Part shown: in pieces, positions 13,474-24,859 of the stretch | Layout: every line of letters begins with the position of its first letter | Position numbering within the stretch: position 1 is the first letter of the stretch | Assembly: GCA_009773735.1 (NCBI GenBank) | Contig: WSYG01000021.1 | Location: 1-40,787 of the forward strand | DNA from: Erysipelotrichaceae bacterium | GTDB taxonomy: Bacteria; Bacillota_I; Bacilli_A; Erysipelotrichales; Erysipelotrichaceae | Direction: 5' to 3' | DNA length: 40,787 nucleotides | Position numbers and translations under genes: made by a program | Notes under the pieces: model-generated | What the model saw: only the letters and a program-made list of their open reading frames with translations | Databases searched by the model: none | What the model was told of the DNA's origin: nothing

Positions 13474-13501
13474 TTGACTTTAACTTTTAATCCTATAGAA
13501 T
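13474..13501 (+). promoter_or_regulatory. Promoter of rplJ-rplL
   Basis: TTGACT (13474-13479) and TAGAAT (13496-13501) are separated by 16 bp. The RNA would begin near 13508, just ahead of the L10-leader-like structure. Confidence 0.68.
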
Positions 13502-13514
13502 AAGTAGTGTTCAA

Positions 13515-13583
13515 TATACCACAGACAGCAACTGCCAATATCTGGCTTAATTCGTTGCCGAGGTAAAAGTTAAGAAACTTTTT
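13515..13583 (+). ncRNA. Ribosomal protein L10 leader
   Basis: The segment contains the landmarks of the L10 leader found upstream of rplJ in Bacillota: AGACAGCAACTGCC, then TGGCTTAATTCGTTGCCGAGGT. Here the AGACAGC and TTGCCGAGG elements bracket a stem in which CAAC can pair with GTTG. In the known family L10(L12)4 binds this region and controls formation of a downstream terminator. The gap between rplA and rplJ (250 bases) is filled by terminator, promoter, this leader and an attenuator. Confidence 0.78.
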
Positions 13584-13610
13584 ACCCATGTCTGAGGACA
13601 TGGGTTTTTT
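13584..13610 (+). terminator. Attenuator terminator in the rplJ leader
   Basis: ACCCATGTC and GACATGGGT form a 9-bp stem with a TGAG loop followed by six T. It lies 40 bases before rplJ and directly after the L10 leader, so it is best read as a regulated attenuator rather than an operon end. Upstream AAAGTTAAGAAACTTTTTAC gives possible alternative pairings. Confidence 0.82.
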
Positions 13611-13649
13611 ATGACTTAGGTGTATTGATAAAAACAAGGAGGTAAGTCT

Positions 13650-14141
13650 ATGAACCAATCGATACTCGATGCTAAGAAGGCCATGGTCATTGAAGTTACA
13701 GAAAAACTGAAAGCTTCAAAATCAGCCATCATAGTCGAATATCGCGGGCTGACCGTCAAACAAGTAACTGATCTACGTCGTGAGCTACGTAAAGAAGGAA
13801 TCGAATTCACAGTCTATAAGAATTCATTCACTCAACGTGCTGCTGCCGATCTCGGTTATGATGCTTTGTCTTCATCCCTCACGGGTCCCAATGCCATCGC
13901 TTTTGGCGATGATGCTGTGGCACCAAGCCGCATCTTGGCAAAATTTGCTAAGAAGCACAAGAAGTTAGTCTTAAAAGGCGGTATCGTCGAAGGCACAGTG
14001 TGCAACGCCGAAAAAATCGCTGAAGTATCTGCTTTTCCTGGAAGAGATGGCATGTATTCACAGATCTTGGGGATGTTACAATCACCAGTCCGTAGTTTCG
14101 CCTATGCTTTACAGCAAATCGCAGATCAGAAATCTGTTTAA
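13650..14141 (+). CDS. rplJ: 50S ribosomal protein L10
   Basis: This 163-residue protein is the base of the L7/L12 stalk. The N-terminal rRNA-binding domain shows SAIIVEYRGLTVKQVTDLR and FTVYKNSF. The C-terminal helix that carries L7/L12 dimers follows VRSFAYALQQIA. Binding of surplus L10-L12 complex to its own leader is the likely control. AAGGAGG precedes ATG 13650 at good spacing. It is co-transcribed with rplL 19 bases downstream. Confidence 0.97.
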   Translation: MNQSILDAKKAMVIEVTEKLKASKSAIIVEYRGLTVKQVTDLRRELRKEGIEFTVYKNSFTQRAAADLGYDALSSSLTGPNAIAFGDDAVAPSRILAKFAKKHKKLVLKGGIVEGTVCNAEKIAEVSAFPGRDGMYSQILGMLQSPVRSFAYALQQIADQKSV

Positions 14142-14160: not shown

Positions 14161-14532
14161 ATGGCTAAATTAAATGCACAAGATGTAATTGCGTCCTTAA
14201 AGGATATGACCATTCTCGAATTGAATGATCTCATTAAAGCAATTGAAGTTGAATTCGGGGTCAGCGCTGCTGCACCTGTCGCTGCTGCTGCTGCAGTTGT
14301 CGAAGCTGCTCCTGCTGGACCAGTTGAAGTAGATGTTATCTTGAAAGAAGTTGGACCTTCAAAAGTCGGCGTCATCAAGGCTGTTCGTGAAATCACAGGC
14401 TTAGGCTTGGTTGAAGCGAAGGGCTTGGTTGATAAGACCCCAATGGCCATCAAAGAAAAAGTTAAACCTGAAGAAGCTGCTGAATTCAAGAAAATTCTTG
14501 AAGCTGCCGGCGCCGTCGTCGAAATTAAGTAA
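14161..14532 (+). CDS. rplL: 50S ribosomal protein L7/L12
   Basis: This 123-residue stalk protein recruits translation factors to the ribosome. The N-terminal dimerisation helix contains [19 protein letters not shown]. An Ala-rich hinge follows (residues 36-53), then the factor-binding C-terminal domain with [25 protein letters not shown] stands before ATG 14161. Transcription beyond it towards rpoB faces a hairpin inside the next gene (14600-14628). Confidence 0.97.
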
Positions 14533-14560
14533 TCCGGTCACTGAAAAGTGCTGGTAAAAC

Positions 14561-15154
14561 TTGACTCACTACTTTAAAAACTCAGAAAACACACCCAGTA
14601 ACCGGAAAGAACTGTCTTTCCGGTTTTTGGGCCATGATTTGACATTCATCAGCGATGATGGGATTTTTTCAAAGTCTAAACCCGATGAAGGATCACTTTT
14701 ATTGGCCAAGACAGCCATTGAACTAAAAATTTCAGGTCAGATCTTGGATATGGGTTGTGGATATGGGTTAGTGGGTTTGTTGGTTAAGAAATGTGATCCA
14801 TCGGTGTTGATCGATGGGATCGATGTCAATATCAAAGCTGTAGAGTGTGCCAATGCTTCTGCCCAAAGGTTAGAACTAGAAGCCAATTATACAGTGAAAG
14901 ACGCACGTGAAGATCTAGGTAAGCAATACGACTGTATCTTACTTAATCCTCCCATACGTACTGGAAAAGAAACCATCTTTGAGCTTTACCGCAATGCCTA
15001 CAAGCATCTAAACCCTCAAGGGTCGCTGATCATCGTGATCAGACGGCAACAAGGTGCGGCATCCAGCTTTAAAGAACTGCAGACGATCTTCCCGTTAGTC
15101 TCAAGAATAAAACTCCATAAAGGTTATGAGATAATTCAATCGAATAAAGATTGA
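14561..15154 (+). CDS. ybxB: Class I SAM-dependent methyltransferase, YbxB/RsmC-like
   Basis: This 197-residue protein has a Rossmann-type methyltransferase domain. Motif I is ILDMGCGYGLVGLL (residues 62-75), the acidic end of strand 2 is DGIDVN, and the catalytic NPP(I/F/Y)-type motif is LLNPPIRTG. The NPPIRTG form is typical of RsmC-type rRNA guanine-N2 methyltransferases. In B. subtilis the ortholog ybxB occupies this same place between rplL and rpoB. It starts with TTG 14561 and has a poor ribosome binding site, but MTHYF aligns with the family N-terminus. A terminator-like hairpin lies within codons 14-23. Confidence 0.85.
   Translation: MTHYFKNSENTPSNRKELSFRFLGHDLTFISDDGIFSKSKPDEGSLLLAKTAIELKISGQILDMGCGYGLVGLLVKKCDPSVLIDGIDVNIKAVECANASAQRLELEANYTVKDAREDLGKQYDCILLNPPIRTGKETIFELYRNAYKHLNPQGSLIIVIRRQQGAASSFKELQTIFPLVSRIKLHKGYEIIQSNKD
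14600..14628 (+). terminator. Terminator-like hairpin inside the start of ybxB, possible rplJL/rpoBC attenuator
   Basis: AACCGGAAAG and CTTTCCGGTT form a perfect 10-bp stem with loop AACTGT, followed by TTT to give five T in total. It meets the description of an intrinsic terminator but lies 40-68 bases inside the ybxB coding region. It could stop part of the rplJL transcripts and so set the ratio of L7/L12 to RNA polymerase subunits. Ribosomes translating ybxB could disrupt it. Confidence 0.6.
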
Positions 15155-15182
15155 CTTATTGAATAAACTTTGGTAATATAAT
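15151..15182 (+). promoter_or_regulatory. Promoter of rpoBC
   Basis: TTGACT (15151-15156) overlaps the ybxB stop codon. At 17 bp it faces TGGTAATAT, an extended -10 with TAATAT (15174-15179). A perfect TATAAT sits at 15177-15182 but with a 20-bp spacer. Either reading gives RNA polymerase its own promoter in addition to read-through from rplJL. Confidence 0.6.
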
Positions 15183-15260
15183 AAATTGCATAACTAACGA
15201 AATTAAACGGGATTTTAAGCCCTTTTAAGCGTTATGATACACTTCGAAAGGATGGCGCGC

Positions 15261-18200
15261 ATGAAGAAACAAGAATCCTACCGTATCACGCAATACGGTA
15301 AAAAGGCAGCACGTCGAGACTACTCCAAAGTCAGCGGCACCCTCGATTTACCCAATCTGGTTGAAATCCAGACAGACTCCTTCGACTGGTTTACCAAAGA
15401 AGGCATAAAGGAAGTATTCCAGGAAATTTATCCCATCGTCAATCATGGTGAAAATGTCCGTTTGGATTTTATGTCCTATGAGTTTGCGGCACCCAAATAT
15501 AGTGTTGGGGAATGCAAAGAAAGGGAAGCCAATTACGCAGCTCCCTTAAAAGCGCACATGAAGTTAGAAATCTTAAATAACGCAACCGGTGAAATCACGG
15601 AACGTCATGAAGATGTCTTCTTAGGAGAATTCCCGCTGATGACTGAAACCGGAACCTTCATTATCAATGGGGCAGAACGCGTTATCGTATCTCAGATCGT
15701 TCGATCGCCTGGTGCTTATTACTACTATGAACCGCTTAAAGATAAAGTAGGCAATCAACAGGACAAATACAATTCAGAACTGATTCCATCTCGTGGAACA
15801 TGGCTCGAATTCATGTCTGCGGTAAAGAAGACAACGGCAGCTTCAAAAGCATCTGCTGCAGACAACAACTTTGCGGATTCCGACTTCCAGATCAATGTCT
15901 CCATTGATCGTAAGCGTAAGATATTATCTTCCATCTTGTTTAAAGCCATTGGTTTCTCTTTCGATACTGAAAAAGCCGAAGATGCTTATGATACAACCGC
16001 CTTTAGAACATTCTTAGGGGCTCTAGGATACAACACGACACGCCAAGATATATTTGGCGATGAACGTGAATTCATCAACCATTATCTGTTGATGTTTACG
16101 TCGTTCTTTGGAGAATATCCAGATATGATCAATACCTTATTGTCGGATAAAGTCAGAACAACGCGTGAAGCTTTGTATGACATCTACAACAATCAACGCG
16201 CTGATGAAATTGCGACTGAAGAAGGCGCTAAGAATCTGATGAAGTCGAAATTCTTCGACAACAGACGATATGACTTAACCAAAGCTGGTCGTTATAAATT
16301 AGGTAAGAAACTCAGTGTCGTCGATCGTATGGTCGGCAACAAACTCGCCATGGACATCAGAGATGCTCAAGGCAATGAAGTCAAATATATCGATAAAGAT
16401 GGTAAAGAAGTCGTCTTAAAAGCCGATGTCATCATCGATCGTGAAGAAAAAGCGGCGCTATTAAAAGTCCTCAACAAGGGCCTTTATATGCAAGCTATGC
16501 CGTTTAATCCTTACTTTAGTTTCCCTGAATCAATTGCTGTCAAAACCGTTGATCGTGATGCTTTAGTGGGTCGTATATTGGCCAACAGTGTTGAAATCAA
16601 TGATTTCAGACTTGATAAAGGCAATGTCATTACATTTCAAGATGCGGTTACTTTAGAAACATTAGTCGATACAGTCTTGGTTTATGAAGGCTTGATCGCA
16701 CGTAAACTGACTTTAAACAAAGCCAACTTTAACAGTGTCATGTCTTATGGACAACGTTTGTTTGTGATCGGTAGAATCCTAATCAACAATAAAGATGCGA
16801 TGAGTAAAGATGAAGTCTTGATTCCTACCTTTGAACCTTCAAAAGATAGAATGGTCTTGTCGATCGACAAAGAACGTGAGTTGAAGTCAGAATTAGGCGA
16901 TAAAGATGCTGAATGTTGGTTGGTTGGTACAGCTGTTCAACAAGTCTATGTCAAAGCCAAAGAAAACGATGACCTGATCAAGATCATCGGTACAGATCCG
17001 TTATTGATCAAGAAAACAGTCACCATGAGCGATATGATCGCTTCTTATGACTATCTATTGAATTTACATACAGGTGTCGGAGAAACCGATGACATCGATC
17101 AATTGGGTAACCGAAGAATCCGTACTGTCGGAGAATTGATCCAAAATCAATTCCGTATTGGTCTATCCAGAATGGAACGTGTCGTTAAAGAAAGAATGTC
17201 CATCAATGCTGATTTAGGTGGTTTAACACCGAAGTCCTTGACCAACATCCGTCCTTTGACTGCTGCCATCAAAGAATTCTTTTCCTCTTCTCAGCTCTCC
17301 CAATTTATGGATCAAACCAATCCTTTGGCTGAGTTGACCAATAAACGTCGTATATCCGCTTTAGGTCCAGGCGGTTTGACCAGAGAACGTGCGGGCTTTG
17401 AAGTCCGTGACGTTCATGCATCCCACTATGGCCGTATCTGTCCGATTGAAACTCCTGAAGGACCAAACATTGGATTGATATCTAATCTTACATCGTATGG
17501 TCGTGTCAATGAGTATGGTTTTATTCAGACACCTTATCGTAAAGTCATGAAAGATGGCACCGTCAGTAACGAAGTCATTTATCTGTCCTCTGATGATGAG
17601 ATGGACTACAACATCGCTCAGGCCAATGAAGTCGTCGATGGGAAATTAGCTCATGATGAAGTTGTTGTCCGTTATAAAGGTGACCATATTAAAGTATTGA
17701 AAGATCAAGTTGAACTCGCTGATGTTTCCCCAAAACAGATCGTTTCGGTAGCGACAGCGTGTATTCCATTCTTGGAAAACGATGATGCTTCTCGTGCTTT
17801 GATGGGTGCCAACATGCAGCGTCAGGCGATTCCTTTGCTCAGACCTCGTTCTCCATATGTAGGAACTGGGATTGAACATCGTATCGCAGCCGACTCCGGA
17901 AGTGCTGTCATTGCGCATCATCAAGGTTTAGTAACCTATGTCGATGCCAACAAAGTCGTCGTCACAGCGGATGATGGGGCTCATACCTATGATTTGATGA
18001 AGTTTAAACGTTCCAATCAAGGAACCTGTATCAATCAGACACCTTTAGTTCGTAAAGGCGATATGGTTGATCGTGGGGATGTCTTAGCGGATGGACCTTC
18101 GATGCAGTCTGGCGAATTGGCTTTGGGCCAAAACGTCAAGATCGCGTTTATGACATGGTATGGCTATAACTATGAAGATGCGGTCATCATGTCTGAACGT

Positions 18201-19478
18201 TTGGTTAAAGATGATGTGTATACTTCGATCCATATTGAAGAATATGATCTAGAAGTACGTGATACTAAGCTCGGTGATGAAGAAATCACCCGTGATATTC
18301 CTAACGTATCCCAAGATGCTTGCCGTCATTTGGATGCTCAAGGCATCGTTATGATCGGGGCTGAAGTTAAAGAAGGCGATATCTTAGTTGGTAAAGTTAC
18401 TCCAAAAGGACAAAGCGAAATTTCTCCAGAAGAAAAATTGCTCTTGGCCATCTTTGGAGACAAGAGCCGTGAAGTCAGAGACAACTCCTTAAAAGTACCT
18501 CATGGCGGAAGTGGTATCGTTCAAGCGGTCAGAATCTTCGATCGTGAAGATGGACATGATTTGGCACCTGGTGTCAAACGTGTCGTTAAAGTCTATATCG
18601 TACAAAAGCGTAAGATCTCAGAAGGGGATAAAATGGCCGGCCGTCATGGCAATAAGGGCGTTATCTCAAAAATCTTACCGGTAGAAGACATGCCTTTCTT
18701 ACCTGATGGAAGTCAGGTCGATATCATGCTGAATCCTTTCGGTGTTCCATCTCGTATGAACATCGGACAGGTCCTAGAAATTCATTTGGGAATGGCTGCT
18801 GAAAAACTCGGTGTGAAGTTTGCGACACCAGTCTTCGATGGCATCAACAATGAAGAACTTAAAGACATCATGCGTGAAGCAGAGATGACAGAAGACGGTA
18901 AGACCATCTTGTTTGATGGCCGTACCGGTGAACAATTCGACGAACGTATTTCAGTTGGGGTCATGTATATGATCAAACTGGCACACATGGTCGATGATAA
19001 GTTGCATGCCCGTGCAACAGGTCCTTATTCTTTGGTTACGCAACAACCTTTGGGCGGTAAAGCTCAAAACGGTGGTCAGCGTTTCGGAGAAATGGAAGTT
19101 TGGGCGCTTGAAGCCTATGGGGCATCCAGTACCTTACAGGAAATCTTAACCATTAAATCTGATGACATCATGGGCCGTACGAAGACCTACGAAGCCATCA
19201 TCAAAGGTAAAGACATTCCAGAACCTGGTGTACCAGAATCCTTCAGAGTGCTTAAACATGAACTCAATGCCTTGGGTATTGATGTCAAACTTTTGGACGA
19301 AGACAAACAAGAAGTCGACATGAAAAAGATCGAAGTCGAAGACAACTCTGTATTGGATGTTGAACCCATCTTACCTACTGAATTAGGTCTGGATGATGAC
19401 GATATCCCTGAAGGGATCGAAGAAGAGATCCCAGAAGCAGCCGTTGTCGGCGCGGATGATCAGGAGGACTTAGTGTAA
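15261..19478 (+). CDS. rpoB: DNA-directed RNA polymerase subunit beta, enlarged
   Basis: This is the catalytic beta subunit of RNA polymerase, about 1405 residues against about 1190 in B. subtilis. Conserved landmarks are all present: [30 protein letters not shown], the rifampicin region [33 protein letters not shown] and the C-terminal [11 protein letters not shown]. The residue equivalent to E. coli His526 is Asn694 (LTNKRR). Extra length is concentrated in residues about 349-588 (nucleotides 16305-17024), roughly 240 residues where I expect about 105. Smaller additions occur near residues 190-215 and 235-290. ATG 15261 is used because AAAGGA (15247-15252) lies eight bases before it; in-frame ATGs at 15234 and 15252 are badly spaced. 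It ends overlapping the rpoC start. Confidence 0.96.
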
Positions 19479-22400
19479 TGAGTATCAACAATTTTGCCTC
19501 TATTCAAATTGGTTTGGCTTCTCCTGAACGTATCCGTGAATGGAGCCATGGCGAAGTCAAGAAACCAGAAACCATCAACTATAGGTCCCAAAAACCTGAA
19601 CGAGATGGCTTATTCTGCGAACGTATTTTCGGACCTTCCAAGGACTGGGAATGTTATTGCGGTAAGTATAAAAAAGTAAGATACAAAGGGGTCGTCTGTG
19701 ACCGTTGCGGCGTCGAAGTCACCAAAAGTTCCGTTCGACGTGAACGTATGGGCCATATCGATTTGGCTGCACCAGTTGCCCACATTTGGTATCTAAGAGG
19801 TATTCCTTCCAGAATGAGTTTACTCTTAGGTATATCCCCTAAGAATCTTGAAGAAGTCGTTTACTTCGTATCCTGGGTCGTCATCGATGCGGGAGATACG
19901 GATCTTTCCTACAAACAAATCATTTCCGAAAAGGAATACAGAGACTATACCCGTGAATGGGGCGTAGGTTCTTTCGTTGCGAAAACAGGCGCTGAAGCCG
20001 TTAAAGAATTGCTTGAACGCATCAATTTACCAAAAGAACACAAAGCAGTCATTGAAGAATTAAAGGATGCTCAAGGCGATAAACGTAAGAAATTGATCAA
20101 ACGTTTAGAAACCATCGATGCGTTCAGAAACTCAGACAATGAACCAGAATGGATGGTCTTGACCGTATTACCAGTCATCCCACCAGATCTTAGACCAATG
20201 TTACAGCTGGATGGCGGACGTTTCGCGACCAGTGATTTAAATGATTTGTATCGCAGAGTTATTACCAGAAACAGCCGTTTAAAACGCTTGATCGAAATGG
20301 GTACACCATCCATCATCGTTCAAAATGAAAAACGCATGCTTCAAGAAGCTGTCGATGCTTTAATCGACAATGGCCGTAGATCAAAACCGATCGCTGGTGC
20401 CGGACAACGTCCTCTGAAATCCTTATCCCACAGTTTAAAAGGGAAACAAGGCCGTTTCAGACAGAACTTGTTGGGCAAACGTGTCGACTTCTCAGGCCGT
20501 TCAGTTATTGCGGTAGGACCAGATCTTAGAATGTTTGAATGTGGTATTCCACGTGAAATGGCCATCCAATTGTTCAAACCTTTCGTCATCAATGAAATGG
20601 TTCATCGTCAACTCACCTCCAATCCAAAATCAGCAGAAAAATTGATCGAAAGACAGGATCCTCGTGTTTGGGATGTCGTCGAAGACGTCATCCATAATCA
20701 TCCAGTCCTGTTGAATCGTGCTCCTACGCTGCATAGACTCGGCATCCAAGCTTTTATGCCAAAACTGGTTGAAGGACGAGCCATTCGTCTACATCCTTTA
20801 GTTACACCTGCTTTCAACGCCGACTTCGATGGCGACCAAATGGCCGTCCACGTTCCTTTGAGCGAAGAATCCAGAGCTGAAGCTGAAGTTTTGATGCTGG
20901 GATCCAATAATATTCTTGGACCTAAAGATGGTAAACCAATCGTTACACCTTCCCAAGACATGGTCATGGGTAACTTCTATCTGAATATGGAAGAAACAGC
21001 TGCCGAATTTGTTGCGAAAGCTGAGCTATTAAAAGCTTTAGGCGATAATGATGGTTATCTGTTATGGAATCGTTTTGCGGATAATGAAGGTCATATCTAT
21101 AAAGACATCAATGAAGCATTGATGGCCTATGAATCCAAAGAGATCCATATCCATACCCGTATTGCGGTACGCGCAAGATCTTTAGGCAAAGACGGTTTCA
21201 CTGCTTCTCAAAATGTATCCTATTTAATTACGACCGTTGGGAAACTGATCTTCAATGAAATGTTCCCTAGCGATTTACCTTACATCAATGAAGTCTCCAA
21301 AGAGAACTTCATCGCAACACCTCAACGTTATTTTGTCCCACTTGGTGAAAACGTCAAGAAATACATCCAATCCTTAAAAATCAGCAATGACTTTAAGAAA
21401 AAAGACTTAGGGACCATCATCGCTGAAGTATTCAATCGTTATGGCACCTCAAAGACTTCCGAAATCTTAGATAAGATCAAAGACAACGGATTTAAGTATT
21501 CGACGGTTGCTGGGATGACGGTTGCGTTAAGTGACATTGTTGTATCCCCAAATACCGCCAATCTCGTTGAGATGGGCAAGATTCAAGAAGCCAGATTGAT
21601 GGATCTCCGTCAAACCGGTCGTTTGACTCCTCGTGAGTGGGAACGTCATGTGACCATTTTGTGGGATCGCATCAAATCCGACATCGGAAAAGATTTAGAA
21701 GCTCACTTACCACGTAAGAACCCGATCAATATGATGAAGACTTCCGGGGCTCGTGGTAATGCATCGCACTTTACTCAGTTAGCGGGTATCCGTGGATTGA
21801 TGGGGAAACCGATCTCATCCACCAAATCTCACCAAGCTGAAACTTCCCAGAATATGGAAGGCAAGAAGCGTGAATTTAGAAGTTTATTGAAAGAACACTA
21901 TTTAGACTTCGCTTTGGAACCCGCAGAATTGATCTTGATCAAAGAACGTGAAGAAGCCATCAAAACAGCTGAAGACACCAAAAAGATCAAGCTCTATGAA
22001 CTCTATGAAGATTTCAAAGGATTAGATGTCTATGCTCAAATCAAACACTTGAATGCATATGCGATCGACCTCAACGTCAAAGCTCGCAAAAAAGTTCAAG
22101 CGAATGTTGAAAAACTACAAACTACTGGTGAACTCGATCAAGATACCGTCTTGACCATGATCAAAAATGACGCAGTAAAAGGCGATCATCACTTTACGAT
22201 CACGACTCAAAACGAAGCCATCAAATTCGCCAAGACAGAATTCGAACAAGGTTTCGAAAAACTAACCACCAACTTCATGGGTCGTAACAGCACCGATGAA
22301 CTGATCGTTCAACTCGATAAAGCCTTGTGGATCAAAGAACAAAAAGACAGTGTTGCATTACGCTTAGATCAGAAAAACCCCTTCATCATGGTTAAATTGG

Positions 22401-24859
22401 ATGAGAAACAACTCAAACAAGCCGAAAAGAAACAGGGTTTAGTCGATTTAGCGAAAACCTTACTGACCAATACTTTGACCAAAGAAGATTTAGCTCAAGC
22501 TTCCTTATATGAAAACGTAAAGTTCCTTCTGAAGAAACAAAATCCGATCATCCTCAAAGTCTTATCCGACAAAGAAAAGATCACCCTTGAATCAGAAGGC
22601 GATAAACACATCGACAACATCGCATTTGACGTCGTTGATGATAACCGTGTCTTCCAATCCATCAATAAGATCAAGATGCTCTCTGAGATCCCAGTTGCCT
22701 TGTTGGACCACTTTACCTTGGCTTCGAAGTTTGTAGAACGCAACTTCACCAAACATGAGATTGAAATTTTAGGAAAAATCAAAGCATCGTATGATGATCT
22801 CGTACGTAAGATCTTTGATGAAAAGTGCGATCTCGGGTTGATGAAATATGCTGATCCGCTCAAAAACTTCACAAGTGTATTGTCTGAAGACCTTAAAACC
22901 AAAGCTGATTCATTGTTGGCGACCTGTGATGAAGCAGTCTTGGCCAAAGCCAATAGTCTGCTTGAACTAACACCGTTGGATGAAGCTGCCTGGGATGAAT
23001 TTGTCTTAGAAACCTACACCAACGATAAACAAGCCATCGATAAGCTATACTACAAAGACCAATATGACAAGAAACTGAGTGAAGTTAAAAAAGCTTTAAG
23101 CGTTCTCTTCAAAGAAGTCGTAAAACGTGGTCTAAGCCCAGAGAATGTCTCTGAAGCTGTGAAAGTCTCAGCTTTGGGTCTGAATACATTAGACATTAAA
23201 AACCTGTTTGATACCGCAGAAAGCTTCTATGCAGCAGCCATTAAGATCGCTGAAGCTTATGTAGAAACACCGGAATCCTTCTTCAAATATGTGGCCTCTA
23301 AGAGTGCTGGCGAAGAGAAGAAAGATGAAAAAGTCATCGGTAATGCGTTAAGCAATCTATCTAAGGCTGAATCACGTTATATTCCTTCAGTCTTCGAAGT
23401 GCCTATATATTCATCATTCCGTAAAGGACTCAATGTGTCAGAATTCTTTATTTCGACCCATGGGGTTCGTAAAGGTCTGACCGATACCGCCTTGAAGACC
23501 GCTGAATCAGGATATCTGACAAGACGTCTCGTCGATGTTGCGCAAGATGTCATGATCGTTGAAGAAGACTGTGGAACCGATACCGGCTATGTCATCGAAG
23601 ACATCCGTGATCGAAAAAACAACACTGTCATCGAAGATCTGAAAGATCGTCTGATTGGCCGTTACTCAAAAGAAGACATCATCAATCCTAAGACAGGTGA
23701 AGTCATGGTTGAAAGCGATGACTACATCTCAGAACCAATGGCGACCTTGATTGTCGAAGCCGGCATCATAAAAGCCAAGATCAGAAATGTATTTACCTGT
23801 AAATCAACCGATGGGATCTGTGTGAAGTGCTATGGCCGTAACTTAGCCACAGGCAAACCAGTCGAAGTCGGAGAAGCTGTTGGGATCATGGCTGCCCAAT
23901 CCATTGGGGAACCTGGTACACAGCTGACCATGCGTACCTTCCATACCGGAGGGGTCGCTGCAGCTGAAGGGGGAGACATCACACAAGGTTTACCTCGTGT
24001 CGAAGAACTCTTTGAAGCCAGACGTCCTAAACGTCCAGCGGTTCTAGCCAAGATCTCAGGTGTTATCTCTGCCATCGAATCGGTCAATACGGACTTCTTC
24101 GATCGTGAAGAAAACGATGCGAAAGAACTCTTGATCCGTATTGACGTAACCAACCACAACACCAATGAAGTAGTATCCCACTTTGCGAGTTTGACCCAAC
24201 ACATCAGACAAGACCTTAAGAAGGGCGAATATGTCGAGGCCGGTGAAAACCTGACCGATGACCATATCGATCCTAAAGAGCTCTTGGAAGTCGGTGGGGT
24301 TGAAAGCGTTCAGTTCTATATCTTAAAAGAAGTTAAGAAAGTCTATCAGTCCCAAGGGATCGAAATCTCCGATAAACATCTGGAAGTCATGATCAGACAA
24401 ATGCTGCGTAAAATCGTCATCACCGATGGCGGCGATGCGAAGCTCTCAATCGGTCAACAGATGAGCATCTCCCACATCACCAGACTCAATCAAAAGTATC
24501 TGATGAATGGTAAAACACCGGCAGCCTTCAAACCTTTATTGCTGGGGATCTCCAAGTCTTCCGTTGAAACCGATTCCTTCTTGTCGGCAGCTTCCTTCCA
24601 GGAAACCACCAAAGTCTTGACCGATGCATCCATCAAAGGAAAAATCGATCATCTCAAAGGCTTGAAAGAAAACGTCATCATCGGTAAACGTATCCCGGCA
24701 GGAACTGGCTCTAAAGTCGATCGTGAATCTTCACGTTTGATTCAAGCCAAAACCGCTTTATTAAGAGAAGCACGTTATGCGAAAAATGCCCGTCGTGAAG
24801 AGGAACAAAACTCTTTAGAAATCCTGAGAGATCAGGAAAAGTCAGACAAAGGCGAATAA
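19478..24859 (+). CDS. rpoC: DNA-directed RNA polymerase subunit beta' with a ~520-residue insertion
   Basis: At 1793 residues this is far longer than the ~1200 usual in Bacillota. Core landmarks are intact: the zinc ribbon (CYCGKYK, then CDRCGVEV), the active-site [12 protein letters not shown], the F-loop [18 protein letters not shown], the bridge helix ([18 protein letters not shown]) and the trigger-loop region [16 protein letters not shown], which has no SI3-type insertion. Between GLMGKP (ends at residue 778) and VFEVPIYSS (residue 1305) lie about 526 residues where other bacteria have fewer than ten. The insert (nt 21812-23392) is rich in Lys and Glu, looks mostly helical and stays in frame. 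It shows no intein signature. Start ATG 19478 overlaps the rpoB stop codon (TAATG). A terminator follows. Confidence 0.96.

Follow-up and report, generated by a model that had tools for sequence, protein, structure and literature searches.

A candidate transcription attenuator within the ybxB coding sequence, between rplJL and rpoBC of Erysipelotrichaceae

How a cell obtains ribosomal stalk protein many-fold above RNA polymerase from a shared transcript is an old question that has been studied mainly in E. coli. For the attenuator between rplJL and rpoBC of that organism, partial termination was proposed, leaving rpoBC below L7/L12, as far as the work of Barry, Squires and Squires (1980) on rplL-rpoB attenuation and processing is conveyed by its citation in PMC5371410. 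Internal termination between ribosomal protein and RNA polymerase genes also sets stoichiometry in archaeal operons, and an internal-termination mutation in such operons of M. maripaludis raised the downstream RNA polymerase genes and slowed growth (PMC10450193). The L10 leader attenuator (RF00557), whose mechanism was described in B. subtilis (PMC4538822), provides an intrinsic terminator in the same operon, and premature 3' ends inside coding sequences are found in E. coli (PMC7815308). Each of these systems resembles in part the hairpin described here, which was found between rplL and rpoB in a window of 40,787 nucleotides, the whole stretch of Erysipelotrichaceae DNA that was analyzed.

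The ybxB hairpin and its surroundings

The window has the gene order nusG, rplK, rplA, L10 leader, rplJ, rplL, ybxB, rpoB and rpoC (Table 1), in which nusG, rplK and rplA were named by position and translation. The product of the ybxB ORF gave a Pfam MTS methyltransferase match (5.5e-36). The RF00557 covariance model matched the window only at 13501-13619, and no Rfam family, including RF00557 at 14600, matched at the ybxB hairpin. The rpoC ORF (19478-24859) encodes 1793 aa with apparent large insertions, the usual size in low-GC Gram-positives being about 1200 aa.

Table 1. Coordinates of the features of the rplJ-rpoB region in the window
Feature	Position	Strand	Remarks
rplJ (L10)	13650..14141	+	
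rplL (L7/L12)	14161..14532	+	highly expressed; upstream of the hairpin
Weak rplL-ybxB intergenic hairpin	14534..14554	+	no T-tract; stronger version in the genus, over the ybxB ribosome-binding site
ybxB	14561..15154	+	RsmC/RlmG-like methyltransferase; TTG start; host gene of the hairpin
Outer clamp	14594..14631	+	CCCAG 14594-14598 with TTGGG 14627-14631, around a T-T mismatch
In-gene hairpin	14600..14625	+	encodes N R K E L S F R F; conserved in the family
Left arm	14600..14609	+	AACCGGAAAG
Loop	14610..14615	+	AACTGT
Right arm	14616..14625	+	CTTTCCGGTT
T5 tract	14624..14628	+	T14624-14625 in the stem; T14626-14628 free unless the outer clamp forms
rpoBC promoter	15151..15179	+	TTGACT-17-TAATAT, TG before the -10; overlaps the end of ybxB
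rpoB	15261..19478	+	ORF opens at 15234; ribosome-binding site suggests a start at 15261

The original prediction had placed an intrinsic terminator, a perfect 10-bp stem with five T, at 14600-14628 within the first codons of ybxB. This structure was confirmed and has a six-base loop, two of the five T being part of the stem, and GGGCC follows directly 3' of the T5. The hairpin begins 39 nt inside the TTG-initiated ORF and occupies ybxB codons 14-22. When both strands were searched for perfect stems of at least 10 bp with at least four G-C pairs and an adjoining T5, one was obtained in the 40.8-kb window and none in 12 dinucleotide shuffles, and a pattern search found the hairpin sequence to be unique in its own genome. 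The segment 14590-14640 folds with -24.3 kcal/mol (z = -5.3), which was equalled by none of 200 shuffles. In the full fold, the CCCAG and UUGGG segments of the outer clamp pair and bury the U-tract in a longer stem of 16 bp with a mismatch; the clamp is present in members of the same genus and less so elsewhere. A d'Aubenton-Carafa-type terminator score was marginal for the hairpin (-1.65 vs +10.2 for the L10-leader terminator), and a generic terminator scan of the window did not list it because only three T lie beyond the full stem. Across the hairpin genomes the score falls below the usual cut-off in 96% and is similar to that of the intergenic terminators of the family. A marginal score is compatible with an attenuator, since such an element is expected to be weak.

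Constraint on the stem and the U-tract

About 75 genomes across the Erysipelotrichaceae-type family carry the hairpin at the same ybxB codons (21/54 relatives in the first set examined), and in about 74 it is a G+C-rich stem-loop of 8-11 bp with a CCGG core. The contribution of codon choice was analyzed with a synonymous-codon null, in which codons were drawn by the usage of each locus itself and fold stability was compared. This resampling yielded p <= 0.005 in each of the 21 hairpin genomes tested and values near 0.5 in most others, a few genomes lacking the hairpin, including G055, folding better than the null expects. In G055, which belongs to the sister family, an unrelated strong stem (GTGACCCTGAAG...CTTTCAGGGTCAC, locus L028) was observed in ybxB codons 11-22; it also exceeds the codon null (p < 0.0005) and has no T-tract.

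Both Arg sites of the hairpin use the rare codons CGG or CGA; CGR is a minor class of Arg codons in the hairpin loci (about 4-26%), with a single exception. The original prediction had named compensatory changes in relatives as a check, and the facing Arg and Phe codons were found to co-vary perfectly: 59 of 74 genomes combine Arg CGG with Phe TTC (G-C), including a pseudogene copy with AGG in place of CGG, and the other 15 combine Arg CGA with Phe TTT (A-U). A broken intermediate occurs in 0/74, although both changes are synonymous, and on a tree of YbxB built without its first 34 residues the double changes represent at least six independent events. Further double changes were detected from C-G to U-A in two genomes (G017, G289) and from C-G to G-C in G173. 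As the covariation is synonymous, protein selection is ruled out as its cause. The motif NRKE[I/L/F]xFRF is itself confined to hairpin genomes. On this comparative evidence, selection maintains the hairpin as an RNA element within the coding sequence of ybxB, and the YbxB protein conforms to it.

The bases that follow the stem are constrained as well. TTTT follows the stem in all hairpin genomes, ATTT being found in two, and the resulting U-tract of 4-5 T, conserved at the nucleotide level, is succeeded by G or C. In 61/61 alignable hairpin genomes FRF is followed by L, S or W, always with a T-first codon; the fourth T is thus present in 61/61 hairpin genomes vs 1/54 genomes without the hairpin at the aligned codon. 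Where T33 faces no A (28 genomes), T33-T34 are kept in every case. The codon of the Phe that follows the stem is TTT, while the Phe inside the stem is mostly TTC. As judged from these alignments, the constraint on the U-tract fits a terminator or a U-dependent pause, whereas a mere stem needs none.

Distribution of the hairpin and organization of the operon

With a loose cut-off, a covariance model of the hairpin matched 156/316 genomes of the order, nearly all of which belong to the family of the window; at E <= 1e-5 it matched 77/136 sampled family genomes. Automatic calls in G029, G256 and G277 were false and were removed by register; G281 and G173, which lie below the model cut-off, were added by inspection. 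A class-wide search outside the family returned only a weak match in G642 (7e-5), which on inspection lies outside ybxB and is an unrelated T-run hairpin.

All 77 model matches lie in ybxB directly upstream of rpoB and in the same direction of transcription, and rplL is located upstream of the hairpin-bearing ybxB wherever the flank was read and classified. None of the 26 family genomes without ybxB-rpoB linkage gave a match at the cut-off (Fisher 1.5e-13 for linkage vs hairpin in 136 family genomes, uncorrected for descent), and no hairpin is present in the ybxB genes that were observed elsewhere than next to rplL. In G173 (L159) rplL and ybxB are together, rpoB is on another contig and the hairpin is kept, as established by inspection; a strong terminator was also observed there 3' of ybxB.

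Three states of the operon can be distinguished. Fifteen tight operons, with rplL-ybxB gaps of 3-13 bp, a short ybxB-rpoB gap and no rpoB promoter, have neither the hairpin nor an intergenic terminator. Where an rpoB promoter region is present without the hairpin, an rplL-ybxB intergenic terminator is found in 22/22 genomes of the sister family, and 8/8 linked genomes of the family have an intergenic terminator. The third state comprises 74 hairpin genomes, most of which have a near-consensus rpoBC promoter; by the criterion used for the other states, an intergenic terminator is seen in only 18 of them. Where rpoBC has a promoter of its own, nearly all genomes contain either the hairpin or a canonical rplL-ybxB intergenic terminator, and the hairpin was exchanged for ordinary terminators in at least five lineages. 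This distribution indicates that the in-gene hairpin takes the place of an ordinary terminator. When kinship is considered, only 4-6 independent contrasts of the hairpin with promoter or linkage are left, which are not significant, so that the argument is strong in pattern and not in statistics. Three genomes (G011, G280, G022) keep the hairpin without a recognizable rpoB promoter, and it can be no full stop there.

The rpoBC promoter and leader (15151-15268 in the window) are highly conserved in the family (TTGACA..TTGACA..TGnTATTATAATAAATTGCATAATA..AAAATGGG..GCCCTTTTT), and the rpoBC start region AAATTGCATAA is near-invariant. A search for a conserved second hairpin in the rpoB leader gave only three weakly supported pairs; a short GGG/CCC hairpin in the rpoBC leader is likewise weakly supported. 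Two metagenome-assembled genomes have interrupted ybxB genes, which may be assembly errors: a stop codon directly precedes an intact hairpin in G294 (L145), and two in-frame stops accompany a decayed hairpin in G210 (L141). Three rpoB matches of equal score in G213:C1 (~2303382, 2374388 and 2445394) are exactly 71,006 bases apart, which suggests a triplicated segment or an assembly artefact.

Function of the hairpin and comparison with known systems

We consider it probable (roughly 0.7) that the hairpin is a partial intrinsic terminator, or attenuator, that ends the highly transcribed rplJL unit inside ybxB and insulates rpoBC. RNA polymerase from the rplJ promoter and L10 leader would transcribe rplJ and rplL and, about 65 nt into ybxB, encounter the hairpin with its U-tract, at which some of the complexes would stop. 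For rpoBC, the promoter that overlaps the end of ybxB would then be the main source of transcription, with read-through adding to it; the output of rplL would be set well above that of ybxB and rpoBC, and L10(L12)4 autoregulation would be uncoupled from polymerase synthesis. Termination at the hairpin, its strength and its effect on stoichiometry are deduced from sequence comparison, and the presumed lowering of rpoBC mRNA relative to rplL from the distribution. The attenuator between rplJL and rpoBC that was originally predicted is supported by the compensatory synonymous changes, by a U-tract preserved across different amino acids, by the linkage to rplL and by the terminator exchange. Two features were not part of that prediction, namely the rpoBC promoter a short way downstream and the hairpin that covers the ybxB ribosome-binding site in the closest relatives. 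Terminators whose hairpins are suboptimal or whose U-tracts are interrupted receive help from NusA and NusG in B. subtilis (PMC8060035). In low-GC Gram-positives, RNA polymerase reportedly runs ahead of the ribosomes (PMC13323073), which would make a terminator position within a gene tolerable.

The second part of the prediction, that translation of ybxB acts as a sensor, did not hold up as a conserved feature. In most relatives ybxB begins with ATG behind a good ribosome-binding site, and the hairpin is nevertheless retained, so that poor translation is no conserved part of the system, and with a polymerase that outruns ribosomes (PMC13323073) an in-gene terminator need not sense translation. 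In the genus of the window, ybxB starts with TTG and a hairpin covers the region of the ribosome-binding site. The weaker hairpin predicted before ybxB was indeed found, without a T-tract; it is weak in the window and strong in G004, G005 and G007, and such hairpins just upstream of ybxB (L004, L005, L006) reach z ~ -3.5 in three species. Comparable hairpins at the ribosome-binding site were also detected in G014, G022, G263, G303 and G309. A translation gate is thus possible at the level of this genus: termination at 14628 would normally prevail behind the TTG start and its hairpin, and ribosomes entering ybxB would melt the in-gene hairpin and release transcription into rpoBC. That the terminator doubles as such a gate, with polymerase supply tracking initiation capacity, seems quite doubtful.

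Other functions of a strong stem just 3' of rplL have to be weighed. Such a stem could protect the 3' end of the rplJL mRNA or be cut by an endonuclease, and rplL would then outlast rpoBC without any termination. The E. coli rplL-rpoB spacer contains an RNase III site, which lends this reading some weight. However, the hairpin lacks the double-stranded stem of about 20 bp expected of an RNase III substrate, being 10-12 bp in most species; its U-tract is conserved even where unpaired, which a pure stem would not need, and it is exchangeable with canonical intergenic terminators. A role in processing or stabilization is hence unlikely. Alternatively, the hairpin and U-tract could direct a NusA- or NusG-dependent pause that gives time for ybxB translation or another event. 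The U-tract is short and followed by G, and suboptimal U-tracts are sites of NusG and NusA action in B. subtilis (PMC8060035); yet ordinary terminators replace the hairpin in at least five lineages and a conserved downstream decision element was not found, which leaves a pause distinctly improbable.

The location of the hairpin in its own gene near the start codon would also suit autoregulation, in which the methyltransferase binds its mRNA at a mimic of its rRNA substrate. This idea is very improbable, given that ybxB genes found away from rplL have no hairpin and that the loop is conserved no further than coding requires. There is, finally, the question of whether the stem merely follows from the protein, as the NRKEISFRF motif encodes a near-palindrome. 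A functionless by-product of coding has a practically negligible probability in view of the codon nulls, the T-first codons across L, S and W and the restriction of the motif to hairpin genomes, and it is refuted in practice by the perfect covariation of two synonymous sites in at least six lineages.

If the hairpin is an attenuator, it most probably allows ribosomal stalk protein to be made in large excess over RNA polymerase. On the attenuator reading, a transcript step should be measurable in many species, and the exchange of in-gene and intergenic terminators can be tested. A direct report of rplL/ybxB/rpoB terminators in Bacilli was not found in a non-exhaustive search of the open literature; an attenuator at this place is known from E. 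coli, and, to the extent of that search, the placement in a coding sequence, the family-wide codon covariation and the constraint on the protein are new. The archaeal operons differ in their polymerase and termination signals and in the other genes involved (PMC10450193). The L10 leader is a separate element, as it lies upstream of rplJ, is non-coding and responds to a ligand, and the ORF-internal ends of E. coli (PMC7815308) are not known as a family-wide, codon-covarying terminator in early codons between ribosomal protein and RNA polymerase genes. The E. coli attenuator, as far as the cited account describes it, resides in a non-coding spacer without an intervening gene, whereas the Erysipelotrichaceae hairpin resides inside the ybxB coding sequence and is followed by an rpoBC promoter of its own. 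A whole family thus appears to place its attenuator in a coding sequence, where the RNA signal would dictate the rare codons and the amino acids NRKE[IL]SFRF[LSW] of an unrelated enzyme, providing a clean natural case of a transcription signal that overrides protein and codon choice.
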